Part shown: one piece after another, positions 1 through 64,000 of the stretch | Layout of the letters: every line of letters starts with the position of its first letter | Position numbering within the stretch: position 1 is the stretch's first letter | Assembly: GCF_947499215.1 (NCBI RefSeq) | Contig: NZ_CANMNI010000004.1 | Coordinates: forward strand, 62,001 to 126,000 | DNA from: an uncultured Pontibacter sp. | GTDB lineage: Bacteria > Bacteroidota > Bacteroidia > Cytophagales > Hymenobacteraceae | DNA: 64,000 nucleotides | Reading direction: 5' to 3' | The notes under the pieces: generated by a model | Told to the model about the DNA's origin: nothing | The model's input: the letters and a program-made list of their open reading frames with translations, nothing else | Databases searched by the model: none | Made by a program: the position numbers and the translations under genes

Positions 1-381
1 TGACTGCAGGGCGTCAATAATCTCATCGTGATGCGGTGGATAAGCCTTTGGCGCGATGTCCACCACAATCAGTTTAGTGAGGCGGGTCGGGTACTTCAGC
101 GCATAGTTCATGGCTACCTTTCCGCCCATGGAGTGGCCCATGATGGCGGGAGTTGGTATCTGGAGGTCATCTACGAGTCGTAGCACGTCTTCAGCCATGG
201 CGTCGTAGTCGTGCTGCTCGCTATGCGGAGAGCGGCCGTGGTTGCGCAAGTCCACCATAAACACATTGTAATGCTCAGCTAGTCGCTTAGCCAGTGTTGC
301 CCAGTTATCCAATGTGCCAAACAGTCCGTGCAAAATCAGCAGCGGCTGCCCATGGCCCATTTCCTTGTAGTGTAGTTTCAT
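1..381 (-). CDS. Alpha/beta hydrolase, YbfF/esterase-like (partial, C-terminus beyond window)
   Basis: Reading leftward from ATG at 381, 127 codons stay open to base 1, so only the N-terminal half is present. The order is that of a serine hydrolase of the alpha/beta fold: an HGLFG oxyanion loop at residues 18-22, a DLRNHGRS turn at 44-51 and the nucleophile elbow GHSMGG at 82-87 with Ser84. This arrangement and the HGRS turn match YbfF-type esterases, which cleave small esters or thioesters; the true substrate cannot be read from the sequence. The catalytic Asp and His lie outside the window. It follows selD on the same strand after a 70-bp gap holding a heptamer array, so it may be a separate transcription unit. 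Family secure, function uncertain. Confidence 0.85.
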   Translation of the reverse strand, partial: MKLHYKEMGHGQPLLILHGLFGTLDNWATLAKRLAEHYNVFMVDLRNHGRSPHSEQHDYDAMAEDVLRLVDDLQIPTPAIMGHSMGGKVAMNYALKYPTRLTKLIVVDIAPKAYPPHHDEIIDALQS

Positions 382-388
382 TTCTTTC

Positions 389-423
389 AGTTAACAGTGA
401 TCAGTTATCAGTAAACAGTCTAA
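389..423. repeat. Degenerate heptamer tandem array
   Basis: Five consecutive 7-bp units fit the pattern AGTNANC (AGTTAAC, AGTGATC, AGTTATC, AGTAAAC, AGTCTAA). The array lies between the hydrolase start (381) and the selD stop (452) and carries no reading frame. It resembles other 7/8-bp arrays in this window. Confidence 0.7.
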
Positions 424-451
424 GCTTACGGAAGTACGTTGTAATTGGTCG

Positions 452-1504
452 CTATACTACCTTTATCAATTTTTTCTCACTTTTGCGCTCTTTCAGCACA
501 CCAAGCGGCTGCAGTTTCAAACCGTAATTCTCAAACACCTGCAGGACTTCTTCTCTGCCAGCCGGATCTACGGCGACTAACAGGCCGCCGCTGGTTTGCG
601 GGTCACAGAGCAAGTGTTTCTGGTCGGGGGTGAGCTCGGCTATTTTGTGGCCGTAGCTGTCGAAGTTGCGGTGCGTACCGCCGGGTATGGCCTTTTGAGC
701 CATATACTCGAGCGCTTCCGGCAGCACCGGTACTTTATCAAGGTATACCTCAGCCATCAGGTTGCTGCCTTCGCACATTTCCGAAAGGTGGCCCAACAAG
801 CCAAACCCCGTTACGTCGGTCATGGCTTTTACTTGTGGCAGTTGACCAAGGTCTGCGCCTATTTTGTTGAGCTGCATCATTTGCTGCGGTGCTAGGTGCG
901 CATGCTCAGGCTTTAGGATGGCCTTCTTCTGTGCCGTAGTGAGTATGCCTACACCGAGCGGTTTGGTTAGGTATAGCTCGCAGCCGGCGGTGGCGGTATC
1001 GTTGCGTTTCAGGTTCTTGATGTCGAGCATACCTGTTACGGCCAGTCCGAAGATCGGCTCGGGACTGTCGATACTGTGACCGCCTGCCAATGGTATACCT
1101 GCCTCGTGACAGATGCTGCGGCTACCCTCGATCACCCGCTTGGCTACCTCGGGGGCTAGCTTGTCTATAGGCCAGCCCAGCACGGCGATGGCCATGGTAG
1201 GTATGCCGCCCATGGCGTAGACATCCGAAATGGCGTTAGCGGAGGCGATGCGGCCGAAATCGTAGGCATCATCCACGATCGGCATAAAGAAATCGGTGGT
1301 ACTGATGACGGCGCGGCCATTGCCGATGTCGTACACAGCGGCATCGTCGCGGGAGCTGTTGCCTACCAACAGCTTATCATTCTCTGGGTAGTGGATATCA
1401 GTGTGCAGGATCGTATCGAGCACTTTGGGGGAAATCTTGCAACCGCAGCCAGCGCCATGGCTGTACTGGGTCAGTTTTATATCTTGATGAGTTGTCTCTT
1501 CCAT
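452..1504 (-). CDS. selD: Selenide, water dikinase (selenophosphate synthase)
   Basis: SelD makes selenophosphate from selenide and ATP, the selenium donor for selenocysteine and for 2-selenouridine in tRNA. The 350 residues are of normal length. Near the N-terminus GAGCGCK gives Cys20 and Lys23, which align with the essential Cys17 and Lys20 of the E. coli enzyme; Cys20 is an ordinary TGC codon, so this is the cysteine rather than the selenocysteine form. The AIRS-type ATP-binding fold follows, and the C-terminal [10 protein letters not shown] motif is present. It starts 4 bp after the stop of mnmH and is very probably co-transcribed with it, so its product feeds tRNA selenation directly. 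Assignment is secure. Confidence 0.97.
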
Positions 1505-1508
1505 GGTA

Positions 1509-2537
1509 TCAGATCAGCTGGTGCTGTTTTGCAAATTCAATCACGCGGCGGGCGTTTTCTTCCGGGTTTATACCTTCAAGCGGGAGCCGCAGCACCTGCT
1601 GCTTTTTAGCCAGTTCATAGGTATAGGCCTTGTCGTAGTAAGAGAGGGCAATGTCGACCATCTTTTCCATGTCGCCGGTATGGATGGCTTCGATCGCCTC
1701 CTTGGTGTCTAGCCCGCCCAATCGTTTCTTTATTCTGAGAATGGCAGCTTCCAGTATGGCTGGATCGGTGAGGCAGTATTCAGCTGCCAATTTTTGTATG
1801 CGCAGTACCTTTGGCACTTCGAGTACGATGGTAGGCGAAGCTTGCATCTGGTCGAAGAGCGGCTTGGGTAACTGGACCCGGCCGATGCTGATGCTTTCGT
1901 CTTCCAACCAAACTGGCTGTTGGCTATCGAGTTTGAGCATTTCCATACCCAGCAGGTTTTCGAAGTGCTCGGTGCTGGGCTGCGGTGCCATATCTATGCC
2001 TCCGAAAGAAGAGCCTTTGTGACTGGCTATACCTTCTAAGTCGATTATCTGCTGACCCTGCTGCTGCAGGTGAGGGAGTAGATCGGTTTTGCCACTGCCT
2101 GTAAAGCCACTCAGCACAACCAAAGGTCTGGATTTCTCGATCTGCTCGTGCATGAAGTGTCGGTAGGCTTTGTAGCCTCCCTGCAGCAGATGCACTTTAA
2201 AGCCTGAGAAGTCGAGCAGCCACGCCATGGAGCCGCTACGCATGCCCCCGCGCCAGCAGTGCACAAGCAGCTCTTTCTGCGGCGCCAGCTTTTCCGCTTC
2301 ACGCACAAAACTTGACATCTTCGGTCCGAACAAGTCCAGCCCGATCAGTACGGCCGGGTCGTGCCCTTGCTGCTTGTAAGCAGTGCCTACGTTGGCTCGC
2401 TCCTCATCCGAAAAGATGGGAAAGCTGTGCGCCTGAGGGATATGACCGATGCCATACTCCTTAGGGGCACGCACATCGAGCACGGGCAATTGCGCCGCTT
2501 TCTCCAGAAACTCCTGTATGGTTATGCTGTTGACCAC
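1509..2537 (-). CDS. mnmH: tRNA 2-selenouridine synthase
   Basis: MnmH (SelU/YbbB) replaces sulfur by selenium at the wobble 2-thiouridine of Lys, Glu and Gln tRNAs, through a geranylated intermediate. Residues 1-130 form a rhodanese domain with the active-site loop HCWRGGMRS and Cys94, equivalent to the essential cysteine of E. coli YbbB. From about residue 140 comes a P-loop domain with Walker A GFTGSGKT at 144-151. Length (342) is normal. It lies between pdxJ (2 bp upstream) and selD (4 bp downstream). Together selD and mnmH make up the complete known requirement for selenouridine; no selA, selB or Sec tRNA is visible in the window. Confidence 0.96.
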
Positions 2538-3986: not shown

Positions 3987-4505
3987 TTGAGTACGTTTGA
4001 TATTTTTCTGGCTGTGCCTATCCTCTTTGGCGCATTTATGGGTTTCCGCAAAGGTCTTTTGCTGGAGCTGATCTCTCTCTTCGCCCTCGTGTTGGGCATC
4101 CTGCTCGGGCTCAAGCTGCTCGACTCCGGCCTGCCCATTATGAAAGAATACATCGGCGATGCCGGTGGTCTACTGCCTTTCGTTACCTTTCTGGTCATCT
4201 TCGTTGCCATTATACTTGGCGTGCGGGTATTAGGACTGCTTCTCAAAAAAGTAATTGACTTTACACCCTTCGGTTTGTTCGACAACATATTGGGTGGTAT
4301 GCTGGGCGCTCTTAAATGGACGCTGGCCCTAAGCCTTCTGCTCTATGTGTCGGAGATGGCGGGTATCTCGATCACACCCGAAACCGCAGCCAGTTCTACA
4401 GTATATCCTTTTGTAGTCAAAACAACCCCTTACGCGCTCAGTGTTATGAGCTATGTGCTACCCTTTGTCAAATCCCTGTTGCTCTCCCTTAAAGAACATT
4501 TTTAG
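3987..4505 (+). CDS. CvpA family membrane protein
   Basis: A polytopic inner-membrane protein of the CvpA (colicin V production) family, which in other bacteria affects envelope homeostasis by an unclear mechanism. From the TTG at 3987 the product has 172 residues beginning MSTFDIFLAVPILFGAF, the standard start of Bacteroidota members; about four hydrophobic helices follow (near 5-25, 30-50, 65-88 and 105-122). The frame also has a GTG at 3957, but that lies inside the preceding terminator loop, so TTG is preferred. The stop codon at 4503-4505 abuts a degenerate octamer array. The family is clear, the role is not. Confidence 0.88.
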   Translation: MSTFDIFLAVPILFGAFMGFRKGLLLELISLFALVLGILLGLKLLDSGLPIMKEYIGDAGGLLPFVTFLVIFVAIILGVRVLGLLLKKVIDFTPFGLFDNILGGMLGALKWTLALSLLLYVSEMAGISITPETAASSTVYPFVVKTTPYALSVMSYVLPFVKSLLLSLKEHF

Positions 4506-4543
4506 ATTTTCAGATTTGGAAATTTGGAGATGTGAAAATGGGG
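4506..4543 (+). repeat. Degenerate octamer array, left copy flanking the Imm53 gene
   Basis: Directly after the cvpA stop come 8-bp units of the type ATTTGGAR: TTTTCAG, then ATTTGGAA, ATTTGGAG, ATGTGAAA. The same unit order appears reversed and complemented at 5401-5447, so the two copies bracket the Imm53 gene. Confidence 0.8.
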
Positions 4544-4586
4544 CTGTGTGCTATTGATAGGTTAGGGTGTATTACAATTATAGAAA

Positions 4587-5165
4587 ATGACCAGATCTCT
4601 ACTTGAGCGAATACAGGATTGGTACAGAAATAACTGTGACGGAGATTGGGAGCATGGCTTCGGAATCAAAATCACCTCAGTAGATAATCCTGGCTGGTCG
4701 GTTGCGATAGAACTTCAGGATACGCCTCTTGAAAATGCCGAGTACAAGAAGCAGTATGACAATGGAGACGAAGACTGGTTGTTTATCGGTGTAAAGGACG
4801 GGAAGTTTACTGGTGCTGGTGACCCAGACAAGCTTAACGAAATCTTTAGGATTTTCTTAGATGAAGTCCTGCCTTATCAAGCAGATGCAAGCTATACTTA
4901 TTCAATTTATGTTCCTGTGCCTAACACTAGAATACCTGTTTGGAAAGAAGTAACGGCAAGAGCAGTTAATGAAAGTGTATTTGAAATCATCCAGATAGAT
5001 GATACGACACTCCAGAAATTGAAAGTGCTGGATATTGATGATTATCAAAACATAGATCTGAAGTCACTCGACAAATTGGAGTATAAAGAAGGCGACAAAG
5101 TAAAGTGCAAGCTGCAGACCTTCTTTGAAGGGTTAGGCCCAGTTGTGACAGAAAAAGTAGAATAA
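4587..5165 (+). CDS. Imm53-like immunity protein with C-terminal extension
   Basis: The 192-residue protein has two parts. Residues 1-96 match the Imm53 immunity family of polymorphic toxin systems: LLERIQDWY, CDGDWEH at 17-23, DNPGWS at 33-38, DEDWLF near 61 and GAGDPDKLNEIFRIF at 76-90. Imm53 proteins are thought to bind and neutralise a cognate secreted toxin, inside the cell. Residues 100-192 form a second unit with PVWKEVTARAV and EYKEGDKVKCK, resembling a small domain seen alone in other bacterial proteins of unknown role. No toxin gene is adjacent. The gene is visibly richer in A+T than cvpA and pabA and is enclosed by inverted octamer arrays, both hints of insertion. The Imm53 call is from motif recall. 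Confidence 0.72.
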   Translation: MTRSLLERIQDWYRNNCDGDWEHGFGIKITSVDNPGWSVAIELQDTPLENAEYKKQYDNGDEDWLFIGVKDGKFTGAGDPDKLNEIFRIFLDEVLPYQADASYTYSIYVPVPNTRIPVWKEVTARAVNESVFEIIQIDDTTLQKLKVLDIDDYQNIDLKSLDKLEYKEGDKVKCKLQTFFEGLGPVVTEKVE

Positions 5166-5180
5166 CAAACCCTAACCCTG

Positions 5181-5231
5181 CACATAAGCCAAGCATCGGC
5201 TAGGCTTCGCTCGCTTTATGTACTAACCGAT
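5181..5231 (+). other. Compact multi-stem sequence downstream of the Imm53 gene
   Basis: Several inverted repeats overlap here: AAGCCAAGC (5186-5194) with GCTAGGCTT (5199-5207); ACATAAGC (5182-5189) with GCTTTATGT (5213-5221, one bulge); and CATCGGCTAG (5193-5202) with CTAACCGATG (5222-5231). Alternative folds are possible. No T-run follows, so it is not a simple terminator. Function unknown; a recombination-site-like or structured RNA element are options. Confidence 0.45.
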
Positions 5232-5400
5232 GTAAGCTGAGTTCGGATTGAGTTTGTCTTGAGCAGAGATTCACAAAGAATTTTTTCTGATTCATCACCA
5301 AGTATTGAGAAAGAGCTAAGCAGTTTCCAAAAAGGAAAAACTAAAAGTCGGTCCAAAGCTTAGATTTTAAGTTAAGTTTAAATTTTACGACTCTTATTAA

Positions 5401-5447
5401 TTTCACATCTATACATCTCCAAATTTTCAAATCTCCAAATCTGAAAA
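5401..5447 (-). repeat. Degenerate octamer array, right (inverted) copy flanking the Imm53 gene
   Basis: Read on the minus strand it runs TTTTTCAG, ATTTGGAG, ATTTGAAA, ATTTGGAG, ATGTATAG, ATGTGAAA: the same beginning and end as the array at 4506-4543 with two more units in the middle. It ends exactly at the pabA start codon (5448). Confidence 0.8.
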
Positions 5448-6032
5448 ATGCTTCTGCTGCTCGATAACTTCGATTCCTTTACTTACAACTTGGTGGATTA
5501 TTTTGGTCAGTTGGGAGAGGAGGTGCATGTGGTGCGCAACGATGTGGCACTGGAGGAGATCAAGGCGCTGCCTGTTACAGGTATAATTTTGTCGCCAGGA
5601 CCCGGAGAGCCAGAGAAGGCGGGCGTAATGATGGAGGTGATCCGGCATTACCATGAAAAGGTGCCGATGCTGGGCATCTGCCTCGGGCATCAAGCTTTGG
5701 GCGAGTTCTTCGGGGCCACTTTGGCGAAAGGTATAAAGCCCATGCACGGCAAGATATCTGAGATTGTCTGTGAGCCGGATCCGCTGTTCGCTGGCTTACC
5801 TCAAAAAATGCCGGTGGTGCGCTACCATTCGCTGGTTTTGAAGCAATGGCCTGACTGCATCGTGCCGCTTGCGTATACAGCCGAAAGAGAGCTAATGGCT
5901 TTTCGGCACAGAACGCTGCCGCTGCATGCGCTGCAGTTCCATCCGGAGGCCGCGCTCACTACTTATGGGCTGGACATGCTGCGAAATTGGCTTAGTATTG
6001 CTAATATTGCAGGTCGGAAGCAACCGATTTGA
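5448..6032 (+). CDS. pabA: Anthranilate/aminodeoxychorismate synthase component II (glutamine amidotransferase)
   Basis: A class I glutamine amidotransferase of 194 residues that releases ammonia from glutamine for a chorismate-using partner (PabB for folate, TrpE for tryptophan). Visible: the opening LLLDNFDSFTYNL, the oxyanion PGPGEP at 50-55, the nucleophile loop GICLGHQALG with Cys78, and the catalytic His165/Glu167 in QFHPEA. Most relatives read HPES where this one has HPEA. No trpE or pabB lies next to it, so the PabA versus TrpG choice is not settled by context; bacteria often use one protein for both. The start codon touches the right octamer array, so its promoter must lie in or before the repeat. 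Confidence 0.9.
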   Translation: MLLLLDNFDSFTYNLVDYFGQLGEEVHVVRNDVALEEIKALPVTGIILSPGPGEPEKAGVMMEVIRHYHEKVPMLGICLGHQALGEFFGATLAKGIKPMHGKISEIVCEPDPLFAGLPQKMPVVRYHSLVLKQWPDCIVPLAYTAERELMAFRHRTLPLHALQFHPEAALTTYGLDMLRNWLSIANIAGRKQPI

Positions 6033-6063
6033 GTAACATCTATTTTAATTTACAGTTTTCGAA

Positions 6064-6840
6064 ATGAATCTACAGATCAGACAAGAAGGCGAATTCCAGT
6101 ATATAGACGAGGGTGAAGGTGAAGTATTGCTACTGTTGCACGGGTTATTTGGTGCCCTGAGCAACTGGCATGGCGTAGTAGACCATTTCTCGAAACAATA
6201 CCGGGTCGTTATTCCGCTGATGCCGATCTACGAGATGGCACTACACAAAGCAGGCGTGCCGGGGCTCGTTTCTTTTATCGAGGATTTCGTTAAATTTAAG
6301 AACCTGAACGACCTGTCCTTGTTAGGCAACTCGCTGGGAGGGCATGTGGCGCTGGTGTATACCTTGAAGAACGCCTCAAAAGTGAAGCGCTTAGTGCTGA
6401 CTGGCAGTTCTGGTCTGTTTGAAGACTCCATGGGTGGATCCTTCCCGAAGCGCGGCAACTACGAGTATGTGAAGGAACGCGTAGAATATACCTTCTACAA
6501 TCCTGAAACCGCTACCAGAGAACTGGTGGATGAGGTGTTCGACATAACAAACAGCAATGCCAAGTGTCTGCGCATTATTGCCATCGCCAAGTCGGCCCAG
6601 CGCCACAACATGGCCAAGGATATCACAAACATAAAGGTGCCGACGTTGTTGATATGGGGACTGAACGATACGATAACCCCGCCGCTAGTAGCGCATGAGT
6701 TTAACCGTCTTATGCCTAACTCAGAATTATACTTCATCGATAAGTGCGGGCATGCGCCGATGATGGAACATCCGGAGCGGTTTAACAGTATCTTAGATAA
6801 ATTTTTGGCCAAAACAGAAGCAAGGGAACCAGCCACATGA
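6064..6840 (+). CDS. Alpha/beta hydrolase (Bacteroidota type, adjacent to CBS protein)
   Basis: A 258-residue serine-hydrolase-fold protein: HGLFGALSNW at 26-35, nucleophile elbow GNSLGG at 88-93 (Ser90), IWGLNDTITPP near 200 carrying the probable acid, and KCGHAPMMEHP near 230 with the catalytic His. The usual D-x-x-G-x-G-x-S loop after strand 4 is replaced by VVIPLMPIYEMALHKAGVPG, which I recall as typical of the Bacteroidota version and which should alter the entrance to the active site. The stop overlaps the start of the CBS gene by 4 bp (ATGA), so the two are translationally coupled. Substrate unknown. Confidence 0.85.
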   Translation: MNLQIRQEGEFQYIDEGEGEVLLLLHGLFGALSNWHGVVDHFSKQYRVVIPLMPIYEMALHKAGVPGLVSFIEDFVKFKNLNDLSLLGNSLGGHVALVYTLKNASKVKRLVLTGSSGLFEDSMGGSFPKRGNYEYVKERVEYTFYNPETATRELVDEVFDITNSNAKCLRIIAIAKSAQRHNMAKDITNIKVPTLLIWGLNDTITPPLVAHEFNRLMPNSELYFIDKCGHAPMMEHPERFNSILDKFLAKTEAREPAT

Positions 6841-7502
6841 TCGCAGAAGAACTCATCAACCAAATGATACCGCCGTTGAAGTTTTACGACACAGTCGACA
6901 AGGCTTTGCGATGGATGGATGAGTTCCGCGTAAACGAGCTTCCCGTGTCGCGCAACCGCAAGTACATGGGCTTGGCCACTGAGACCAACCTGATCGAACT
7001 GCCCGACCGTAACCAGACGCTGGAGCATGTGCCATTGGATTTTCAGGATGTGTTTGTGATGCACCACCAGCACTTTTACGATGTGATGGAGGCCGCCATC
7101 AAAAACAAGATTCAGGTAGTACCCGTGCTCGACGAAGAGCAGGACTACATGGGTATCATCACCATTAACGACACGCTGGCCGCCTTCGGACAGATGTCGG
7201 CGCTGCAGGGGCAGGGTAGCATTCTGGTGCTCACCATGCCGGAGCGAGACTACTCCCTAGGCCAGATCAGCCGCCTGATAGAAGAGGAGAATGCCAAAAT
7301 CCTGAGCGCCTACGTGTCGCCGGATGAGGTGGACCCTTACAACATCAAGCTCACCCTAAAGCTGAACACCTCCGATCTTACCCGCATCATTGCCACGCTT
7401 GAGCGTTTCGAATACCGCGTGACGGCCCAGTTCCAAGATGCGTCCAAATACGACGTGGGCCGCGACCGGCTGGATATGTTGTTCAAGTATCTGGACATAT
7501 AG
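6837..7502 (+). CDS. CBS-domain protein
   Basis: A 221-residue cytosolic protein with a tandem CBS pair (about residues 8-60 and 68-122) and a C-terminal segment of about 90 residues of ACT-like character (SILVLTMPERDYSL onward). CBS pairs bind adenine nucleotides and act as energy sensors; which ligand binds here cannot be read. There is no catalytic domain. It overlaps the hydrolase gene by 4 bp and is followed after 8 bp by the Omp85-like gene and then by nadK, a gene order common in Bacteroidota. A regulatory role on one of these neighbours is inference only. Confidence 0.88.
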   Translation: MIAEELINQMIPPLKFYDTVDKALRWMDEFRVNELPVSRNRKYMGLATETNLIELPDRNQTLEHVPLDFQDVFVMHHQHFYDVMEAAIKNKIQVVPVLDEEQDYMGIITINDTLAAFGQMSALQGQGSILVLTMPERDYSLGQISRLIEEENAKILSAYVSPDEVDPYNIKLTLKLNTSDLTRIIATLERFEYRVTAQFQDASKYDVGRDRLDMLFKYLDI

Positions 7503-7510
7503 CCACGGCA

Positions 7511-8899
7511 GTGCCTCTCCGCGTCGCCTTCTTCCTGTGCTTTTTCCTGTTGTGCCGAAGCTTAGCGGCCCAGCCTTGCGATTCCGCTACTGTTGTGATC
7601 GATAGCATCCGCTTTTCCGGTAACGAGGTCAGCAAGGCCCGCATGCTGCTTTTTGAGCTGAACATAAGCCCGGGCGATACAATACAGGCTGACCAGTTGG
7701 ATGAGCGGGTGGAAGATAACCGCAAGCGTCTTTTTAACTTGCGCCTTTTTCATGAAGTAGGCTATACCTATACCTGCTATGAGGGGCGTGTGGCCGTGCT
7801 GTATACCATGCAGGAGCGCTTTTACCTGTACCCTATCCCCATTTTTGACTTGGCTGACCGTAATTTCAATGCTTGGCTTGAGCGCAGGGACTGGGGGAGG
7901 GTAGATTATGGCATAAACCTGATCCGCCGTAATTTCAGGGGCCGAAACGAAGAGGTGCGCATGCGGATACAGCAGGGCTTCAATAAAAGACTCGAGTTCA
8001 CCTACCGGGTACCTTACATCAGTCGGGCGCATAAGCTGGGCATAGATTTCGGGATAGCCGACTACCGTAGCCGGGCAATCGATTACCGCACATCAAACAA
8101 CCGGCAGCGCTTCTTCGTGCAGGACCAAGGCGTACCGATACAGCGCACCGTTCTAACTACCGGCCTTATACATAGGCAGAGTGTGCAGCGGCAAGAAGGC
8201 CTGCGACTTACCTACGTACAGGAGGGGGTGTCCGACACCGTGCTGGCGCTCAATCCGGAGTACTACAACTACAGCACACAAGAGCGACAGTATATGCGCC
8301 TAGAGCTGTCAAAGGTGGTGAACCTGCGCAATTCCTTTATTTATCCGCTCACGGGGAGTTACTTTGAGGCCATTGCGGCGCAAACTTTTTTTATGGGAGG
8401 AAGCGGATCACCCATCACCACGCTGCGTGCGAAGTATGTGAATTATCGCAACATATCCGGTAAATATTACTATTTTGTGGGTGGCGAAGCGCAGACCCGG
8501 CTATCGAGGCGCTATGCTTACGCTGATAATGTGGCGCTTGGTTTCCGGTCGCTGGTGCGCGGTTATGAGTTGCAAGTGGTTGGTGGGCAGCATTTCGGAC
8601 TTTTTAAGCAGGGGCTCACACGTGAACTGTTTCAGCATAAGGGCGTGCACCTGAAGTTTATCCGAAGTCCGAAATTCAACAAGGTGCCGTTGGCCTTGTA
8701 CGCCAACGCCTTCACAGACGCAGGCTATGCTTCGGACAATGTGTTTGAGAAAGGCAATCCGTTAGCCAACAGGCTACTGCTGGGTGCCGGCGCCGGCTTG
8801 CACTTGGTTACGTTCTACGACTTTGTGTTTCGGGCGGAATATACGATTAATAGGGAGGGGGCTAAAGGGTTTTATTTTAGTGGCCGATTCCCTTTTTAA
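7511..8899 (+). CDS. Short Omp85-family outer-membrane protein (one POTRA plus beta-barrel)
   Basis: 462 residues with a signal peptide (MPLRVAFFLCFFLLCRSLAAQ), one POTRA-like domain at about 25-105 (IDSIRFSGNEVSKARML, then LFNLRLFHEV), and a C-terminal barrel-forming region with alternating hydrophobic residues that ends in aromatic FYFSGRFPF, as expected of an outer-membrane barrel. LVRGYE near residue 347 matches the VRGF/Y motif of the Omp85 lid loop. BamA proper is encoded at 12552, so this is a second, much shorter member, similar in size to FhaC/TamA-like or patatin-associated barrels. GTG start at 7511, 8 bp after the CBS stop. Substrate unknown. Confidence 0.83.
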   Translation: MPLRVAFFLCFFLLCRSLAAQPCDSATVVIDSIRFSGNEVSKARMLLFELNISPGDTIQADQLDERVEDNRKRLFNLRLFHEVGYTYTCYEGRVAVLYTMQERFYLYPIPIFDLADRNFNAWLERRDWGRVDYGINLIRRNFRGRNEEVRMRIQQGFNKRLEFTYRVPYISRAHKLGIDFGIADYRSRAIDYRTSNNRQRFFVQDQGVPIQRTVLTTGLIHRQSVQRQEGLRLTYVQEGVSDTVLALNPEYYNYSTQERQYMRLELSKVVNLRNSFIYPLTGSYFEAIAAQTFFMGGSGSPITTLRAKYVNYRNISGKYYYFVGGEAQTRLSRRYAYADNVALGFRSLVRGYELQVVGGQHFGLFKQGLTRELFQHKGVHLKFIRSPKFNKVPLALYANAFTDAGYASDNVFEKGNPLANRLLLGAGAGLHLVTFYDFVFRAEYTINREGAKGFYFSGRFPF

Positions 8900-8912
8900 C
8901 TAAAGAAGATAT

Positions 8913-16382: not shown

Positions 16383-16420
16383 GAAAGCCGATGTTTTATA
16401 CCTCGGCTTTCTTTTTGTTT
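16383..16420 (+). terminator. Rho-independent terminator ending the uppS-bamA-ompH unit
   Basis: A perfect 9-bp stem GAAAGCCGA/TCGGCTTTC (16383-16391 with 16403-16411) is followed by TTTTTGTTT. The 11-nt loop contains TATACC. Confidence 0.85.
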
Positions 16421-16440
16421 ATACCTAAAGCTAGTTGCCT

Positions 16441-20445: not shown

Positions 20446-20501
20446 CGTTCAGGTTTTACTATATATGTAGGCCTAAATTTAAGGTATATACTTTAAAAAC
20501 T

Positions 20502-31881: not shown

Positions 31882-33195
31882 ATGTCAACCAACATCATTG
31901 CAATCGTAGGCCGCCCGAACGTGGGCAAGTCTACACTTTTTAACCGCCTTGTAGGGCGCCGCCAAGCCATTATGGACAATGAGAGCGGCGTAACCCGCGA
32001 CCGTAGCTACGGGCACGGCGACTGGACCGGCAAGTATTACACTGTGATCGACACAGGTGGCTATGTGCACGGATCCGACGATATTTTTGAAGGAGAGATC
32101 AACAAACAGGTAGAGCTAGCCATTAAAGAGGCCGATGTGATCCTGTTTATGGTAGACGTGGAGGCCGGCCTAACCGGACTGGACGAAGAGTTCGCCAACG
32201 TACTGCGCCGCACCGACAAGCCTATTTATGTGGTAGCCAACAAAGCCGATACCAATTCTCGTGCACACCAGATGGGAGAATTCTACTCGTTAGGTGTAGG
32301 TATAGACATTTTTCCGGTTTCGTCGCAAAGCGGATCCGGTACAGGTGATCTGCTGGATGAGGTGGTGAAGCACTTCAAAACGGAAGGTACAGAAGACCCG
32401 GATGCAGGTATACCTAGACTTGCGGTGCTGGGCCGTCCGAACGTGGGTAAGTCCTCTTTCGTGAACATGTTGTTAGGTGTGGAGCGTAACATCGTAACGG
32501 ATATTGCCGGTACAACCCGCGATGCCATCGACTCGCGCTACAATGCCTTTGGCAAAGAGTTTATCATTGTTGATACAGCTGGTCTGCGCCGCAAGAGCAA
32601 GGTGAGCGAAGACATTGAGTTCTATTCCGTGATGCGCTCAGTGCGTGCCTTGGAGGATGCCGATGTTTGTATCGTGATGCTGGATGCCACCCGTGGTATC
32701 GAATCGCAGGACGTGAACATTATCTCGCTGGCCGAGAAGAACCGCAAAGGCATCGTGATTCTGGTGAACAAATGGGATTTGGTAGAGAAAGAAACAAACA
32801 CGACTAAGGAGTTTGAAGAAAAGATACTGGAGGCGATTGCGCCGATCAAGTATGTGCCAATCATCTTTACTTCGGTAGTAACAAAGCAGCGTGTGCACAA
32901 GGCTGTTGAGACAGCGATGGAGGTATACGAACAGAAAACGCGTAAAATCTCTACTTCAAAATTGAATGATAAGATCCTGCCGGATATTGAGCGTTATCCG
33001 CCACCGTCTGTAAAAGGTAAGTTCATCAAGATCAAGTATGTGACGCAGCTGCCGACGCACAACCCAACATTTGCGTTCTTCTGCAACTTGCCGCAGTACG
33101 TAAAAGAGCCTTATACGCGCTACTTAGAAAACAGCATTCGTAAGCATTTTGGCTTCGAGGGGGTGCCGATTAAAGTATTGTTCAAGAAAAAATAA
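31882..33195 (+). CDS. der: GTPase Der (EngA)
   Basis: Ribosome-assembly GTPase for the 50S subunit. The 437 residues contain two G domains in tandem, each with its own GRPNVGKS P-loop (near 9-16 and 184-191), DTGG and DTAG switch motifs, NKAD and NKWD specificity motifs, and a C-terminal KH-like domain (about 355-437) that ends in KVLFKKK. Era and Der adjacent to one another suggest joint expression; the 63-bp gap has no clear terminator. Nothing unusual. Confidence 0.98.
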   Translation: MSTNIIAIVGRPNVGKSTLFNRLVGRRQAIMDNESGVTRDRSYGHGDWTGKYYTVIDTGGYVHGSDDIFEGEINKQVELAIKEADVILFMVDVEAGLTGLDEEFANVLRRTDKPIYVVANKADTNSRAHQMGEFYSLGVGIDIFPVSSQSGSGTGDLLDEVVKHFKTEGTEDPDAGIPRLAVLGRPNVGKSSFVNMLLGVERNIVTDIAGTTRDAIDSRYNAFGKEFIIVDTAGLRRKSKVSEDIEFYSVMRSVRALEDADVCIVMLDATRGIESQDVNIISLAEKNRKGIVILVNKWDLVEKETNTTKEFEEKILEAIAPIKYVPIIFTSVVTKQRVHKAVETAMEVYEQKTRKISTSKLNDKILPDIERYPPPSVKGKFIKIKYVTQLPTHNPTFAFFCNLPQYVKEPYTRYLENSIRKHFGFEGVPIKVLFKKK

Positions 33196-33517: not shown

Positions 33518-33586
33518 TAGGGTAAAACCTATACCTAGTAGGTGCGTATTGCAAGGAGCTTATTTCTCACCTTAACCAAAACGACA

Positions 33587-33786: not shown

Positions 33787-33820
33787 ATGGCAGGTCCTTT
33801 ACGGGGCCTGCCATTTTTTT
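33787..33820 (+). terminator. Terminator after the second small lipoprotein gene
   Basis: Stem ATGGCAGGTCC (33787-33797) with GGGCCTGCCAT (33803-33813, one G-U pair) and seven Ts; it also faces the converging gene at 33840. Confidence 0.85.
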
Positions 33821-33839
33821 ATACCTATACCTGATAGAG

Positions 33840-49649: not shown

Positions 49650-49737
49650 GGTATGGTATTAGGTATAGAGTTGACTTATCTGGTAAAGAAGCATATAAAT
49701 TTGCTGCAAGCCGCTAAACTTTGCAAGTAAAGTTGCA

Positions 49738-49778: not shown

Positions 49779-51875
49779 TTAACTAATACGGCTCCAGTTG
49801 ACGGTGTTTACACTGAGCGACTTGATGTGCCGTAGGATATTCTGGTTCTGTGGTTGTTCTAACTGTGGATCTTCATTCAGCACGCGTTGTGCCGCAGCCC
49901 GCGATTCCTGCAGGATCGGTGCGTCTTTGGCAAGGTCGGCAATTAACAGATCGAGCACACCGCTTTGCTGCGTACCCATCAGGTCGCCCGGACCGCGCAG
50001 TTTCAAATCGATGTCAGCAATTTCGAAACCATTATTAGTGCGCACCATGGTTTCGAGGCGGGTCTTGCTGTCTTTGCTCAATTTGTACCCCGTCATGAGG
50101 ATGCAGTAGCTCTGCTCAGCGCCACGTCCCACACGGCCGCGTAACTGGTGCAGCTGCGACAGACCGAAGCGCTCAGCGCTCTCTATGATCATCACAGAGG
50201 CATTCGGTACGTTCACACCCACCTCGATCACAGTGGTAGCCACCATGATCTGGGTCTCGTTGCGAACGAAGCGCTGCATTTCGTAATCTTTGTCCTGCGC
50301 CTTGAGCTTGCCATGCACCATGCTTACTTGGTTCTCCGGGAAAGCTCGTCGTATACTTTCATAGCCATCCGTCAAGTCCTTATAATCCATCCCCTCCGAC
50401 TCCTCTATGAGCGGGTATACGATGTATACCTGTCGGCCCAGCTTGATTTGGTCGCGTACGAATTGGAACACACGCAGCCGGTGGCTGTCGAAGCGGTGCA
50501 CGGTCACGATCTCCTTGCGGCCAGCCGGCATCTCGTCAATCACCGATACATCCAAGTCGCCGTAGAGCGTCATGGCCAAGGTGCGGGGTATAGGCGTGGC
50601 CGTCATCACGAGCACATGCGGGATGATGCGTGGGTTCTTGCGCCACAGCTTGGAGCGCTGCTCCACGCCAAAACGATGCTGCTCATCCACGATGCAGAGG
50701 CCCAGATTCTGAAACTGCACCACATCCTCGAGCAGGGCATGCGTGCCCACGATCATTTTCATGTCGCCGGAGCGCAGCTGCTCGTGCAGCACTTTGCGGT
50801 CTTTGGTTTTGGTGGAGCCGGTGAGTTTGCCGATGTTTATACCTAGCCGGTCCGCAAACTCCTTTAGGCCGGTATAGTGCTGGTCAGCCAGAATCTCGGT
50901 AGGTGCCATCAACACGGACTGCGCCCCGTTGTCGGCTGCGATGAGCATGGTGATGAAGGCCACAATTGTTTTGCCCGAGCCCACATCGCCCTGCAGCAGT
51001 CGGTTCATCTGCTTGCCGGCCGTCAGATCTTTGTGAATTTCCTTTACAACCCGTTTCTGAGCATTGGTCAGGTCAAAGGTCATGTGGTTTTTGTAGAACT
51101 CGGTTACGGTAGGTACCTGCTTGAACACCTGTCCGGCCAAGTCGGCGCGTCGCACCGTCTTTTGGCGTAGCAGTCGCAGCTGTATGTAAAAAAGTTCTTC
51201 AAACTTGAGGCGGAACTTGGCCGCATTGTACTTCTCCACTGACTGCGGGAAGTGGATGTTGATAAGCGCGTCCCTCTTGCTCATGAGCCGGTAATGGTCG
51301 ATCAGCTCCGGCGAAAGGGTTTCCTGTATGTTAGGCACAGCCACTTTCAGCAGCATCTCCATCATGCGGGAGATCGTCTTGCTCTCTACCCGAAAGGCCT
51401 TCAGCTTTTCGGTGGTATGGTAGACCGGCTGCAGAAAAGCCGTAGTTTGTTTCTCTTCGGCTAGTTCCTCCAACTCGGGGTGTGCCATGCTAAACTTGCC
51501 GTTAAAAGCAGTCGGTTTGCCGAACACAATATAATCGGTGTGGTTTTTCAGCGTCTTCTGCATCCACTTCACCCCCTTGAACCAAACGAGGTCCATCTCG
51601 CTGCCGGCTTCATCCACCAAAGTCGCAGCGAGTCGCTGCTTCCGGCCTTCGCCTAATACTTCTTTGCCACGCACGCGCCCGCGCACCTGCACATAGGGCA
51701 TGCTCTCGTCCAACTCAGCTATTTTATAGAACTGCGTGCGGTCGAGGTACCGGAAAGGGTAGTGCTGTATGAGGTCCCCGTAGGTATAGATATTGAGCTC
51801 CTTCTGCAGCAGTTCGGCCCGCTGCGGACCAACCCCTTTCAGGAATTCGATCTTGGTATGGAAGAAGTTGCTCAA
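49779..51875 (-). CDS. recG: ATP-dependent DNA helicase RecG
   Basis: Helicase that remodels stalled forks and branched DNA. The 698 residues have the RecG order: N-terminal LKGVGPQRAELLQKEL, an OB wedge domain (about 60-150: YVQVRGRVRGKEVLG), then helicase motifs LLQGDVGSGKTIVAF near 290 (Walker A), VDEQHRFG near 395 (motif II), MTATPIPRTLAMTLYGDLDVS (motif III) and the C-terminal LRGRVGRGAEQSYCILMT near 585 (motif VI), ending with the TRG-like segment. It follows gldD on the same strand after a hairpin and has its own -7 element. Assignment secure. Confidence 0.97.
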   Translation of the reverse strand: MSNFFHTKIEFLKGVGPQRAELLQKELNIYTYGDLIQHYPFRYLDRTQFYKIAELDESMPYVQVRGRVRGKEVLGEGRKQRLAATLVDEAGSEMDLVWFKGVKWMQKTLKNHTDYIVFGKPTAFNGKFSMAHPELEELAEEKQTTAFLQPVYHTTEKLKAFRVESKTISRMMEMLLKVAVPNIQETLSPELIDHYRLMSKRDALINIHFPQSVEKYNAAKFRLKFEELFYIQLRLLRQKTVRRADLAGQVFKQVPTVTEFYKNHMTFDLTNAQKRVVKEIHKDLTAGKQMNRLLQGDVGSGKTIVAFITMLIAADNGAQSVLMAPTEILADQHYTGLKEFADRLGINIGKLTGSTKTKDRKVLHEQLRSGDMKMIVGTHALLEDVVQFQNLGLCIVDEQHRFGVEQRSKLWRKNPRIIPHVLVMTATPIPRTLAMTLYGDLDVSVIDEMPAGRKEIVTVHRFDSHRLRVFQFVRDQIKLGRQVYIVYPLIEESEGMDYKDLTDGYESIRRAFPENQVSMVHGKLKAQDKDYEMQRFVRNETQIMVATTVIEVGVNVPNASVMIIESAERFGLSQLHQLRGRVGRGAEQSYCILMTGYKLSKDSKTRLETMVRTNNGFEIADIDLKLRGPGDLMGTQQSGVLDLLIADLAKDAPILQESRAAAQRVLNEDPQLEQPQNQNILRHIKSLSVNTVNWSRIS

Positions 51876-51920: not shown

Positions 51921-51967
51921 CAAAGGGCAAAAGACCTTAGGTTATACCTGATGTCTTTTGCCCTTTG
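51921..51967. terminator. Hairpin between gldD and recG
   Basis: Perfect 15-bp stem CAAAGGGCAAAAGAC (51921-51935) with its complement at 51953-51967 and a 17-nt loop containing TATACCT. The left arm continues the octamer-like run AAAGATAA/AAGACAAA. On the minus strand a T-rich tract follows, so it can serve as the gldD terminator. Confidence 0.65.
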
Positions 51968-55690: not shown

Positions 55691-55891
55691 AAACAATGTT
55701 CTGAAAATGGGATGATGGGAGTCGCAGGTATTTCGCTATGTAATTAAAATATAAGTAGATAGGGTGCGTTAGGGAGGGGGTAGGCTGGCACGGGTATTGC
55801 AGTGTGGAGAGCAGGAGACGGGCCGGGTTAAGGCGGGGGCACGATCTGTAATAATTTAGTGCTAAAGCTTTTACTTGTCGAAAAGTAGGTA

Positions 55892-55899
55892 TACCTTTG
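55892..55899 (+). promoter_or_regulatory. -7 promoter element for the HU/IHF gene
   Basis: TACCTTTG matches TAnnTTTG, 88 bp before the GTG at 55987. It overlaps the 10-bp palindrome AGGTATACCT at 55887-55896. Confidence 0.55.
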
Positions 55900-56356: not shown

Positions 56357-57220
56357 ATGTCACGCGCTCAAATAATCATACTTGTTGCAGCTATCGCTCT
56401 TGCAGCGGCCATGTTCTTTTTGCCTAAAGTGGTCGTAACAAAGGATGATGACAGTTCGGTAGCCACTGCACAGACTTCCGCTATTCCGGAAGGCCACTCA
56501 GAGGATGATGGTCACGACCACGGCCCTTCACCGGCTGCTGCGGCTGATGGGGTGCATGCCTCGGCTACACCGGAGCAGATGATGGAACTGGCCACTGTGC
56601 GTGCCCGTTATAACAAAGCATCTGACGCTAAAACACGCGGCCTTCTTGCCGGCGAACTGGCAGAGGCCTATGCCGCGGCCAGCAAGTTCGACAGCGCAGG
56701 TTACTACTATGAAGTAGCAGCCGAAGCTCGTCCGGGCGAGAAGAACTTCCGCAAAGCTGGCGACCAGTATTTCGAGGCCTTCACCTATGCGGCAACGCAG
56801 CAGCGGGCCAGCGAACTGGGAGGCAAGGCGCGTAAGATGTACGAGCAGGTGCTGAAGAACAACCCGAGTGACATGGACGCAAAGACAAATGTGGCCATGA
56901 CCTATATCGCGAGCGAAAACCCAATGCAGGGTATTACGCTGTTGCGAGAGGTGATTTCGGCAGACCCGAAAAATCAGAAGGCGTTATTTAACTTAGGTAT
57001 CCTGTCAGTGCAGTCCGGGCAGTGGGACAAAGCCGCTGAGCGATTCCAAAACTTGGTAGAAGTGAATCCGGAACATGTGGAAGGGACCTTTTATCTAGCG
57101 GTGTCATTGGCTGAGATCGGTAAGAAAGAAGAAGCTATCAGAACTTTCAACAAGGTAAAAACGATGAGCAGCGACCCTGCCCTTAATGCCTCAGTTGATG
57201 AGTATCTTGCGAAATTGTAA
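56357..57220 (+). CDS. Membrane-anchored TPR protein
   Basis: 287 residues. One N-terminal helix (about 4-24: AQIIILVAAIALAAAMFFLP) anchors the chain; a linker rich in His, Asp and Ala (SEDDGHDHGPSPAAAADGVH) follows, then four to five TPR units from about 75 to 285 (TRGLLAGELAEAYAAASKFDSA; LFNLGILSVQSGQWDKAAERF). The His/Asp-rich linker could bind metal, but that is a guess. Partners unknown. It stands between HU and the small ribosomal-type gene. Confidence 0.85.
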   Translation: MSRAQIIILVAAIALAAAMFFLPKVVVTKDDDSSVATAQTSAIPEGHSEDDGHDHGPSPAAAADGVHASATPEQMMELATVRARYNKASDAKTRGLLAGELAEAYAAASKFDSAGYYYEVAAEARPGEKNFRKAGDQYFEAFTYAATQQRASELGGKARKMYEQVLKNNPSDMDAKTNVAMTYIASENPMQGITLLREVISADPKNQKALFNLGILSVQSGQWDKAAERFQNLVEVNPEHVEGTFYLAVSLAEIGKKEEAIRTFNKVKTMSSDPALNASVDEYLAKL

Positions 57221-62897: not shown

Positions 62898-62903
62898 AAG
62901 GAG
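62898..62903 (+). promoter_or_regulatory. Strong ribosome-binding site of the Spy/CpxP-like gene
   Basis: AAGGAG lies 8 bases before the ATG at 62912. Such sequences are uncommon in this window, where starts usually lack a Shine-Dalgarno match. Confidence 0.55.
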
Positions 62904-62911
62904 AAAAAAAT

Positions 62912-63418
62912 ATGAAGAAGTTAATCGCAGCCCTCTCATTAGGCGTGTTAGTTGCCGGTAGCGCTTATGCTCAGACCAGCACCACTACGCAGCAAGACCG
63001 CAAGCCACGCAGTGAGATGCGTGCAGCCATGAAGCATAAGGCGCAGAAAAACCCTGAGGAAATGGCCCAGATGAAAACTGACCGTATGGCTCAGAGACTT
63101 GAGCTTAATGCCTCTCAGAAAAACCAACTGCAGGCCCTGAACTTGCGTCATGCCCAAGAAATGAAAGCCATGCGCGAAAGCTATAAAGCAACTGGTGAGA
63201 AAACAGCAGAGCAAAGAGCTCAAATGCAAGAAGCCAGAAAAGCAAGCCATAATAAATGGCAGGCAGAGTTGAAAGGCATTTTATCTGCAGAGCAGTTTGC
63301 CAAGTACGAAACTGATAAAGCTGAAATGAAACAGAAGCGTGCTGAGGGTAAGAAAGGCCGTAAAGGTGACTTTCAGAAAAAAGGCGATTACCAGAAAAAG
63401 CAGCAGCAAGGAAAGTAA
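62912..63418 (+). CDS. Spy/CpxP-like (LTXXQ-type) periplasmic protein
   Basis: 168 residues with a signal peptide ending at AYAQ (residue 21). The mature chain is helical and rich in Lys, Gln, Met and Glu; RLELNASQKNQLQALNLRHAQEM near 51-73 and LKGILSAEQFAKYE near 114-127 resemble the two L-T/S-x-x-Q repeats of Spy and CpxP, which act as periplasmic chaperones and stress sensors. The C-terminus is a low-complexity Lys/Gln/Gly tail (KKGRKGDFQKKGDYQKK). A sigma-54-like promoter and a strong Shine-Dalgarno precede it and a terminator follows, so it is a stand-alone, probably stress-induced gene. The family call is by motif only. Confidence 0.78.
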   Translation: MKKLIAALSLGVLVAGSAYAQTSTTTQQDRKPRSEMRAAMKHKAQKNPEEMAQMKTDRMAQRLELNASQKNQLQALNLRHAQEMKAMRESYKATGEKTAEQRAQMQEARKASHNKWQAELKGILSAEQFAKYETDKAEMKQKRAEGKKGRKGDFQKKGDYQKKQQQGK

Positions 63419-63440
63419 TCCTCAAAGATCCCATAGTTAA

Positions 63441-63478
63441 AGCGAGGGCAGACCACAAGGTCTGTCTTCGCTTTTTTA
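63441..63478. terminator. Terminator between the Spy/CpxP-like gene and nth
   Basis: 14-bp stem AGCGAGGGCAGACC (63441-63454) with GGTCTGTCTTCGCT (63459-63472, with one mismatch or G-U), loop ACAA, followed by six Ts; acts for both converging genes. Confidence 0.85.
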
Positions 63479-64000
63479 TTAGGCTATACCGCCAACCTTA
63501 TTTTCAGGGTCGTCGGGTATGTTCGGGTAGTGCTTCTGGAAAAACTGGCAGAAATGGGTGAGCGGGCACTCCTCGCACTTCGGGCGCCGGGCAATGCAGA
63601 TGTAGCGCCCATGTAGAATTAACCAGTGGTGTGCTTTGGCAATCAGCTCCTGCGGCAGATTGGCCACAAGTTCTTTTTCTACATCCAGCGGTGTTTTAGC
63701 TGTTTTGGATACGAGCCCCAATCGCTTGCTCACCCGGAATACATGCGTATCCACGGCCATGGCTGGCTGGTTCCAGATCACTGACACGATCACATTGGCG
63801 GTTTTCCGGCCAACACCCGGCAGTTTCACTAATTCCTCCACAGTGCTTGGTACTTCAGCGTTAAACTGTTCCACCAGCATTCTTCCCAGCCCAGCCAAGT
63901 GCTTGGCCTTGTTGTTGGGGTAAGAGATGCTTTTAATGATCGGCAGAATCTCTTCAGGGGAAGCCGCAGCCAGATGCTCCGGTGTAGGAAAAGCCTCAAA
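63479..64000 (-). CDS. nth: Endonuclease III (partial, N-terminus beyond window)
   Basis: DNA glycosylase/AP lyase for oxidised pyrimidines. The frame is open from the right edge (FEAFPTPEHLAAASPEE) to the stop at 63479, 173 residues here, so only the first 40 or so are missing. The helix-hairpin-helix LPGVGRKTANVI carries the catalytic Lys, AVDTHVFRVSKRLGLV the catalytic Asp, and C-x6-C-x2-C-x5-C (CIARRPKCEECPLTHFC) the [4Fe-4S] cluster. A short C-terminal tail follows. Assignment secure. Confidence 0.96.
   Translation of the reverse strand, partial: FEAFPTPEHLAAASPEEILPIIKSISYPNNKAKHLAGLGRMLVEQFNAEVPSTVEELVKLPGVGRKTANVIVSVIWNQPAMAVDTHVFRVSKRLGLVSKTAKTPLDVEKELVANLPQELIAKAHHWLILHGRYICIARRPKCEECPLTHFCQFFQKHYPNIPDDPENKVGGIA

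Follow-up and report, generated by a model that had tools for sequence, protein, structure and literature searches.

A genome-wide heptamer with clade-bound dialects in Pontibacter: a possible uptake-sequence-like watermark

The stretch of Pontibacter DNA analyzed here (64,000 nucleotides, hereafter the window) carries one heptamer, AGGTATA or its reverse complement TATACCT, in such numbers that the question arises of which process maintains it. The original prediction had given about 80 sites (32 AGGTATA, 45 TATACCT and 3 palindromes), and our recount agreed, with 35 AGGTATA and 48 TATACCT (83 sites, Table 1), three of each lying within the palindrome AGGTATACCT. This palindromic form occurs only three times in the window, and AGGTATA itself is not a palindrome. 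For both strands, Markov models of order 0, 1, 2 and 3 predicted 8.6, 5.2, 10.7 and 16.9 sites, respectively, and those of order 4 and 5, which already hold most of the heptamer, 32.5 and 61.5. Ranked by order-3 z-score, AGGTATA/TATACCT came first among the 7-mers of the window. Seven of the ten sites originally given as examples were placed exactly, and three were off by one (20482 rather than 20481, 16420 rather than 16419, and 51943 rather than 51944). Genome-wide counts were not close to expectation either: the 4.31-Mb genome holds 5748 AGGTATA/TATACCT sites versus 325 for a reversed-word control, and the over-representation of the heptamer is thus confirmed as real and genome-wide. Related forms had also been described as common, which held in part: in 344 kb (order-3 Markov), GGGTATA was moderately raised (90 versus 63.0 expected), but CGGTATA/TATACCG hardly so (98 versus 89.5). 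A moderate rise was also found for AAGTATA (118 versus 89.0), AGCTATA (88 versus 60.0) and AGGTATG (106 versus 60.9).

Table 1. Heptamer sites and reference gene in the window (a dot stands for no strand).
Feature	Position	Strand	Remark
Heptamer AGGTATA/TATACCT, 83 copies	1..64000	.	16.9 expected, order-3 Markov
Palindromic double site AGGTATACCT	741..750	.	
Palindromic double site AGGTATACCT	32406..32415	.	
Palindromic double site AGGTATACCT	55887..55896	.	between ORFs 54554-55645 and 56357-57220
Overlapping tandem double site TATACCTATACCT	7763..7775	-	heptamers at 7763 and 7769
Overlapping tandem double site TATACCTATACCT	33820..33832	-	gap before ORF at 33840
Heptamer site	16397..16403	-	gap, ORFs 15746-16360 / 16435-17472
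Heptamer site	16420..16426	-	gap, ORFs 15746-16360 / 16435-17472
Heptamer site	20482..20488	+	gap, ORFs 19218-20186 / 20560-21390
Heptamer site	33530..33536	-	gap after ORF 31882-33195
Heptamer site	49661..49667	+	gap, ORF 48189-49649 / recG
Heptamer site	51943..51949	-	gap upstream of recG
recG	49779..51875	-	anchor for orthologous regions; no part in the phenomenon itself

The distribution of the sites was analyzed in 564 kb of the same genome, with genes defined by longest-ORF calls. A 5.3-kb contig that resembles an rRNA contig and has 2500 of 5325 letters masked was excluded, and stretch L199, which has an 18-kb overlap with L087, was left out of the polarity, GC-bin, spacing and gap counts. 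So was stretch L007, the only strongly strand-biased one (33:3), where a repeat ORF of 3840 aa is made up of units of about 234 bp. Within genes, all six phase and orientation classes were enriched (625 sites versus 86.5 after synonymous shuffling, about 4- to 15-fold per class, in a count that took in the repeat-protein stretch), and AAGTATA was likewise enriched in all six classes in the AAG dialect described below. The enrichment is therefore not confined to one codon phase, which rules out codon usage as its cause and upholds the earlier claim that codon preference alone is insufficient. The observed-to-expected ratio was 8.1-9.0 in 280 genes with more than 50% GC and 2.2-2.7 in 26 genes with less than 42% GC, a set that holds 13 sites and in which low GC serves only as a proxy for foreign origin. 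Site density did not correspond to gene conservation. Double sites in tandem with a 6-base step were found 19 times in the 564 kb. Information beyond the heptamer was slight past one base before and two to three bases after it, and repeat elements are thereby ruled out as carriers.

Comparison of 20-kb regions orthologous at recG in this genome and 49 congeners revealed three dialects among the 50 species: AGGTATA in 12, AAGTATA in 20 and AACTATA in 7, with none or no clear one in the other 11. Genome-wide counts were made for AGGTATA and AAGTATA, and AACTATA rests on the 20-kb regions. The dialects keep a TATA core and differ at two heptamer positions and in flank preference. They follow the species tree, with 6 Fitch changes versus at least 19 in each of 2000 shuffles, the 11 genomes without a clear dialect being given a single label. 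Some nodes of the tree are poorly supported (0.12 to 0.74), which leaves it uncertain how often the word was lost. In leave-one-out comparisons, the heptamer had a small retention advantage (440/533, 83%) over control heptamers (1978/2676, 74%), and no such advantage was seen in the own genome (33/51 versus 158/256). No similar word stood out in eight other Bacteroidota loci (4 from Adhaeribacter, 1 from Rufibacter and 3 others, out of 70 loci).

A regulatory or promoter element would be in keeping with the higher site density between genes than within them in the own sequence (1.90 versus 1.28 per kb). However, 625 of the 782 sites sampled lie within predicted genes, and the highest densities were found in the gaps between convergent genes (4.58 per kb for AGG, 7.12 for AAG and 12.85 for AAC), where no promoter is expected; this peak rules out a promoter role, and a regulatory function of the word is scarcely credible. 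It is also very improbable that the heptamer arises, without any benefit, from a directional bias of mutation or repair. A purely mutational process would act on both strands and in all frames too, but 20 of the 21 one-mismatch forms were found at orthologous places and the commonest accounted for only 271 of 1107, so there is no single substitution route, and the differences between dialects, at two heptamer positions and in the flanks, also argue against such a bias. The word could instead bind a nucleoid, segregation or recombination protein and be kept by site-by-site selection as a structural or recombination site. The occurrence of sites in every sampled stretch at near-random spacing (CV 1.19) is compatible with such a role, and a DNA-binding protein of drifting specificity would likewise yield dialects. 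However, thousands of sites that turn over would be hard to maintain by selection on each of them. Chi and KOPS are polar with respect to replication, whereas strand bias, which the original prediction had singled out for checking, proved to be absent, with 273 sites on the G-rich strand and 267 on the C-rich one (own-genome stretches, sign of the GC skew, 10 of 26 stretches with a skew below 0.02 being dropped). The word thus shares with Chi its shortness and over-representation but not its polarity, so the suggested likeness to Chi is contradicted and Chi and KOPS are ruled out. We consider a structural or recombination site unlikely on the whole, although a non-polar architectural role is conceivable.

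Another possibility is that the heptamer is a methyltransferase target kept by methylation-linked repair or gene conversion, the dialects reflecting changes in enzyme specificity. The cyanobacterial HIP1 and alternate HIPs are described as highly iterated words that are replaced by others in some lineages and accompany cognate methyltransferases (PMC4390886). They are GC-rich palindromes, whereas AGGTATA is asymmetric. The own genome does encode a candidate MmeI-type (type IIG/IIL) enzyme, a protein of 1155 aa with MmeI methyltransferase and target-recognition domains. MmeI-type enzymes read asymmetric words of 6-7 bases and change their preference base by base. However, restriction targets are usually avoided rather than enriched, and we know of no MmeI-type sites that are enriched words, as the Pontibacter heptamer is. 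The enzyme also appears to be patchy in the genus: a weak PF07669 probe detected MmeI-length frames (1165-1211 aa, same part of the profile) in 14 of the 50 genomes and 6 of the 12 AGG species, MmeI-type identity being confirmed for the frame of the own genome only. With this probe, such frames were missing from the most motif-rich genomes, G276 and G278, and present in the motif-less G282. Methyltransferases of the PF01555 type are ruled out as the cause, since 19 of the 50 genomes in all, including the own one, have none, and 13 of these 19 have a dialect. Neither PF01555 nor the weak PF07669 probe revealed, in the 50 genomes, a methyltransferase present in all species of a dialect. Methylation is a rather unlikely explanation, though the MmeI-type enzyme of the own genome counts in its favour and against the uptake reading discussed next.

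On balance, the heptamer is probably, though with considerable room for doubt, best explained as an uptake-sequence-like watermark read by a putative pilus-independent receptor, since its dialects are clade-bound, it occurs on both strands and in all frames, low-GC genes are poor in it, and competence genes are present. Among the candidates originally named (HIP1, Chi and uptake sequences), the uptake-like one fits best and the HIP1-like one is weakened. According to the uptake-sequence reading, the natural-transformation machinery would include a DNA receptor, in the cell envelope or the periplasm, that prefers DNA with [not G]AGGTATA[G], so that DNA from the same species would be taken up and recombined more frequently. 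Alleles gaining the heptamer would then spread, and the word would build up wherever proteins and promoters tolerate it. Drift in receptor preference would be followed by drift in the word, giving rise to the clade-bound AGGTATA, AAGTATA and AACTATA with their TATA core. We infer that Pontibacter may be transformable, that the word may raise uptake or recombination, and that a receptor independent of pili may read it.

The DUS of Neisseriaceae are reported to have clade-bound dialects with an invariant shared core that follow the species tree (PMC3630211). The Pontibacter word resembles the DUS/ComP system in being short and highly over-represented and in its tree-following, clade-bound dialects with a core; it differs in that the host belongs to the Bacteroidota, the word has seven bases, and neither a type IV pilus motor nor terminator-type inverted pairs were found. 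The PF00437 matches were short in all 50 genomes (at most 25.9 bits and 66 of 370 positions) and barely above the cut-off in three of them, and it is on this motor search only that we do not class the Pontibacter word as a ComP/pilin system. For the USS of Pasteurellaceae, about 1300 copies are reported in H. influenzae (PMC5217627), and the receptor there is predicted to be a type IV minor pilin (PMC12616744). The Pontibacter word shares their high density but is unrelated in sequence and belongs to another phylum. Paired USS form terminators, whereas no such arrangement was seen in 564 kb of Pontibacter, in which pairs 7-59 bases apart were inverted in 28 cases (17 and 11) and direct in 42 (26 and 16). 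A parallel within the Bacteroidota is provided by Riemerella, which has no pili and is described as transformable; ComEC, DprA and an HHH protein take part, together with envelope proteins of unknown identity (PMC8459023). In a competition assay, R. columbina preferred its own DNA, and the raw k-mer table of that study lists A/T-rich words (PMC7965970); no uptake word is known to be established in Riemerella. Pontibacter is similar in having ComEC, DprA and an HHH protein and no pilus motor that we could find, as judged here from its genes.

The comEC and dprA genes and HHH_3/ComEA-type domains were identified in all 50 genomes, and a comEA-like frame of 304-346 aa in 49 of them, as judged by frame length. 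In the own genome, comEC and the comEA-like gene are among the top 3-4% of 341 genes by site density; dprA is not rich in sites, as 55% of genes have a higher density. Joint damage in G276 and G259 favours the uptake reading: in these genomes dprA and comEC are both broken and the comEA-like gene is damaged. A full-length comparison of the comEA-like gene in six genomes showed it intact in the own genome, G278, G264 and G266. In G259 it is split into pieces in four frames, and in G276 a single stop interrupts it close to the start. The G276 assembly is a draft in about 100 contigs and that of G259 a single contig, and the damage was judged by intact control genes; those at recG had no stops (8/8 in G276 and 7/7 in G259), and in a wider window set 48 of 51 G276 genes had none at 90% coverage. 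The ratio of AAGTATA to control was 8.8 in G259, the lowest in a clade of nine genomes (18.6-38.5 in the rest). G276 retains 43 of 44 shared sites despite its damaged competence genes, and the uptake reading therefore needs the loss to be recent. Joint damage to the competence genes is imperfect: in G274, which has the AAC dialect, the frame of comEC changes towards the C-terminus although the dprA domain is intact. Furthermore, all 11 genomes that lack a clear dialect carry comEC and dprA (the seven of their comEC genes examined are full length), and having competence genes is thus not enough to predict the word. The small retention advantage, the missing match between site density and gene conservation, the ordinary density of dprA and the lack of terminator-type pairs also count against the uptake reading.

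No candidate receptor was found in our searches for DUF5689 in the 50 genomes and in the comEC neighbourhood of 14 loci. DUF5689, the domain of Riemerella RS04920, was rejected: it occurs in 22 of the 50 genomes and does not track the word. The own genome has a short DUF5689 form adjoining an ORF that, by eye, we take to be SusD-like. At the 14 loci, four ORFs after comEC were common only to the three AGG genomes among them, and no neighbour was present in all dialects yet absent from motif-less genomes.

We found no report of transformation in Pontibacter in the open-licence literature surveyed, nor, among the matches listed for open-licence PubMed Central, of such a word in Pontibacter or other Bacteroidota. 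To our knowledge, the only uptake words with dialects are those of two families that use type IV pili, the Neisseriaceae and the Pasteurellaceae. We tentatively suggest, although the balance tips slightly against it, that the heptamer is Pontibacter's own species-recognition watermark, a set of uptake dialects beyond the Proteobacteria. Its reader would be a receptor in the outer membrane or periplasm that belongs to the Bacteroidota uptake machinery and needs no pilus, and changes of dialect would mark changes in gene-exchange partners within the genus. The word, its three dialects, the species lacking it and the two species with damaged competence genes would provide handles for finding this receptor. 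If true, this would be an independent case in the Bacteroidota and would show that bacteria have evolved self-recognition in DNA uptake repeatedly, and can do so without pili.

The heptamer AGGTATA/TATACCT occurred in the window as 35 AGGTATA and 48 TATACCT copies, three of each sharing the palindrome AGGTATACCT. Markov models of orders 0 to 3 predicted 5.2 to 16.9 sites, and the over-representation put forward in the original prediction was therefore confirmed for these 83 sites. It extends to the whole Pontibacter genome (4.31 Mb, 6 contigs), which carries 2882 + 2866 sites, versus 141 + 184 copies of the reversed word.

Locations of word sites and other features (window, G000:C4:62001-126000 of the own genome, G000; C, contig; L, fetched stretch)
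Feature	Location	Strand	Remarks
AGGTATA	window 741, 969, 1619, 2556, 3619, 5579, 5729, 12929, 14589, 20482, 20589, 26651, 27158, 28744, 28822, 28867, 28927, 30178, 32298, 32406, 32921, 34539, 40169, 42204, 45872, 48379, 48956, 49542, 49661, 51782, 52428, 55887, 61398, 62057, 62471	+	
TATACCT	window 744, 1094, 1569, 2028, 2876, 6358, 6487, 7763, 7769, 9065, 9273, 10134, 11689, 16397, 16420, 18004, 19673, 19862, 26880, 29573, 30449, 32409, 33530, 33820, 33826, 36159, 36222, 37004, 39763, 39892, 40897, 42312, 42371, 42933, 43530, 45599, 46853, 49125, 49157, 49200, 50425, 50838, 51943, 53511, 54785, 55890, 60925, 61224	-	
Tandem double words	window 7763-7775, 33820-33832		examples
Repeat ORF, L007 (G000:C2:1-20000)	L007:6881-18401	-	unit of ~234 bp bears the word repeatedly
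MmeI-type restriction-modification protein, 1155 aa	L226:244-3711 = G000:C1 ~486244-489711		methyltransferase and target-recognition domains
Fatty-acid degradation cluster	window 39364-47312		near recG; FadD-like ligase, FadB-like, thiolase, FadE-like

In 564 kb sampled from the genome (the window and 25 further 20-kb stretches), 625 of the 782 sites lay within predicted ORFs, 145 between ORFs and 12 at edges. The word is thus frequent in intergenic DNA too, as had been claimed (1.90 per kb, versus 1.28 within genes). Synonymous codon shuffling gave 86.5 expected sites within genes, and all six phase/orientation classes were enriched (observed versus shuffled: AGGTATA, 38 vs 6.5, 72 vs 18.4 and 179 vs 11.8; TATACCT, 127 vs 24.1, 92 vs 15.8 and 117 vs 10.0), so codon preference is indeed insufficient. 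Flank preference was mild: G was rare before AGGTATA, and after it G was favoured and T rare, then C. Overlapping tandem double words (AGGTATAGGTATA, 19 cases) and palindromic double words (15 cases) were conspicuous among short site-to-site distances in the 564 kb.

Comparison with related genera, based on 241 genomes sampled evenly from the order, showed the word to be prominent only in Pontibacter: the word-to-control ratio was 17.7 for the own genome, whereas among 235 others no value exceeded about 2.9 (that of G169). Relatives at 95-97% recG identity include P. aquaedesilientis, P. ramchanderi, P. roseus, P. lucknowensis, P. amylolyticus, P. virosus and P. indicus. Among 50 Pontibacter genomes, the own genome and its 11 nearest by recG (AGG dialect) had 5748 to 9303 AGGTATA copies, and the next genome 3132. 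Dialects of the remaining genomes were called from the leading word of orthologous 20-kb regions: AAGTATA (AAG) led in 20 and AACTATA (AAC) in seven, three of them also rich in AAGTATA, and 11 had none or an unclear one. Genome-wide, AAGTATA copies numbered 4114 to 11818 in the AAG genomes, 5110 to 9116 in the three mixed AAC genomes, 1956 to 2318 in the other four, 966 to 1363 in AGG genomes and 770 to 2905 in those without a clear dialect. In AAG genomes, AAGTATA was enriched in all six classes and reached 3.69 per kb between genes, versus 0.24 for AGGTATA; AACTATA was enriched in five of six classes in four AAC genomes, the sixth being empty in observation and expectation alike. In the genes of eight motif-less genomes, the three words were near expectation (19 vs 17.6, 29 vs 19.0 and 23 vs 20.2). 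On a six-gene tree, the four dialect labels required 6 changes, versus at least 19 in 2000 label shuffles. The three main dialects keep A..TATA constant and vary in the second and third base, much as Neisseriaceae DUS dialects are described as retaining a common core (PMC3630211).

Further dialects are possible in G277 (GGTATGG/GGTATAAA, 38 vs 9.4) and G140 (weak CTATATA enrichment, 69 vs 32.9). In Botryobacter ruber (G271; stretches L054 and L203), which together span 40 kb, GAGGTAGA was over-represented (14 vs 1.4), AGGTAGA being one base off the AGG word; it may be either a repeat or a further dialect. CCAGTTC/CAGTTCC and TCCGGA were moderately enriched in several Pontibacter samples, dialect-less species included, perhaps as a codon-context effect.

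Turnover was followed in alignments of 9 to 12 AGG genomes, which covered 50 of the 57 window genes. The motif of one genome was unchanged in others in 66% of comparisons, versus 32% for composition-matched control heptamers. A stricter test, confined to positions on which 70% or more of the other genomes agree, was less telling: the motif was retained in 440/533 cases (controls 1978/2676), and in the own genome in 33/51 (controls 158/256). Word sites are therefore more often common to genomes than control words, yet they are turning over, and many have been lost in the own genome, which has the lowest word count of its clade. In 21 columns with AGGTATA in 50% or more of the AGG genomes, AAG genomes showed AAGTATA in 17% and AGGTATA in 13%; in 14 AAG columns, AGG genomes showed AGGTATA in 24%. 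In 24 AAC columns, AAG genomes showed AACTATA in 11%, and AAGTATA was outside the nine commonest forms. Some sites may therefore have switched from one of the AAG and AGG forms to the other without changing position.

Several other explanations were weighed (ALTERNATIVES). A Chi-like role, one option of the original prediction, is contradicted by the lack of strand polarity in the 16 of 26 own stretches with clear GC skew (273 sites on the G-rich strand vs 267 on the C-rich strand); the sole strongly one-sided stretch of the sample, L007 (33:3), owes its bias to a 3840-aa repeat ORF. A promoter element is contradicted by the gap types, since sites were densest between convergent genes (convergent, tandem and divergent: AGG, own genome, 4.58, 2.36 and 2.52 per kb; AAG, 7.12, 4.25 and 4.44; AAC, 12.85, 5.38 and 4.70). 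Observed/expected ratios in the own genome were 2.2-2.7 in genes below 42% GC (26 genes, 13 sites) and 8.1-9.0 in those above 50% (280 genes). Such a gap and GC pattern would be expected of a drive that acts across the whole genome and is curbed by function and by residence time. A single-mutation origin is contradicted by 20 of the 21 one-mismatch forms being present at orthologous places, GGGTATA being the commonest (271/1107). A non-polar architectural role is possible.

Maintenance of the word through a DNA methyltransferase, as for HIP1, is less likely than the uptake reading but possible, and is made more probable by the MmeI-type enzyme that the own genome encodes. PF01555 methyltransferases were absent from 19 of the 50 genomes, the own genome included, and 13 of the 19 have a dialect. 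PF07669 matches occurred in 47 of 50 genomes, strong ones patchily. MmeI-length frames with the same weak PF07669 match as the own enzyme were found in 14 of 50, including six of the 12 AGG species, and by this probe were missing from G276 and G278, the genomes richest in word copies, so the enzyme would be no conserved keeper of the word as far as the weak PF07669 probe shows. CCWGG was avoided about 12-fold in the own-genome sample (584 kb, window included; 104 observed vs 1236 expected), whereas its relatives of the AGG dialect showed scarcely any avoidance (1834 vs 2146). This points to a pressure peculiar to the species, for instance from a restriction or defence system that targets CCWGG.

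As regards uptake, comEC (PF03772), dprA (PF02481) and HHH_3 domains were each found in all 50 genomes, and own-genome genes matched the ComEC, DprA and ComEA-type HHH families. G276 (Pontibacter sp. HSC-14F20) and G259 both have a broken dprA and a break in the main domain of comEC. Their comEA-like gene is damaged as well, by a single stop close to the start in G276 and by fragmentation into four frames in G259. Control genes at recG were free of stops (8/8 and 7/7 in G276 and G259, respectively). This joint damage suggests that the three genes serve one dispensable trait, retained by most of the genus. G274 has a comEC frame change near residue 540. G259 had the lowest AAGTATA-to-control ratio of its nine-genome clade (8.8 vs 18.6-38.5), as word decay following loss of competence genes would give; no decay was seen in G276 despite its damaged genes. 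When 341 own genes were ranked by site density, comEC with 9 sites and the comEA-like gene with 4 fell within the top 3-4%, whereas dprA, with a single site, did not.

A PF00437 profile search of the 50 genomes found no type IV pilus or type II secretion motor, only short matches (at most 25.9 bits, three marginally above cut-off). Riemerella, a Bacteroidota genus, is described as transformable without pili, with ComEC, DprA, ComF, RecA, an HHH protein and unknown envelope proteins as essentials (PMC8459023); for R. columbina, own DNA is reported to compete at equal dose and other DNA only at tenfold excess (PMC7965970). The likeness to uptake sequences raised in the original prediction held in most sequence tests and failed for terminator pairing and the pilus; the word thus looks DUS-like, but we do not class it with the ComP/type IV pilin system. 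Weak links in an uptake reading include the intact competence genes of motif-less species and the MmeI-type enzyme of the own genome. On the genomic evidence, the likeliest reading of the word is a watermark resembling uptake sequences, in a Bacteroidota genus with no detectable pilus motor.
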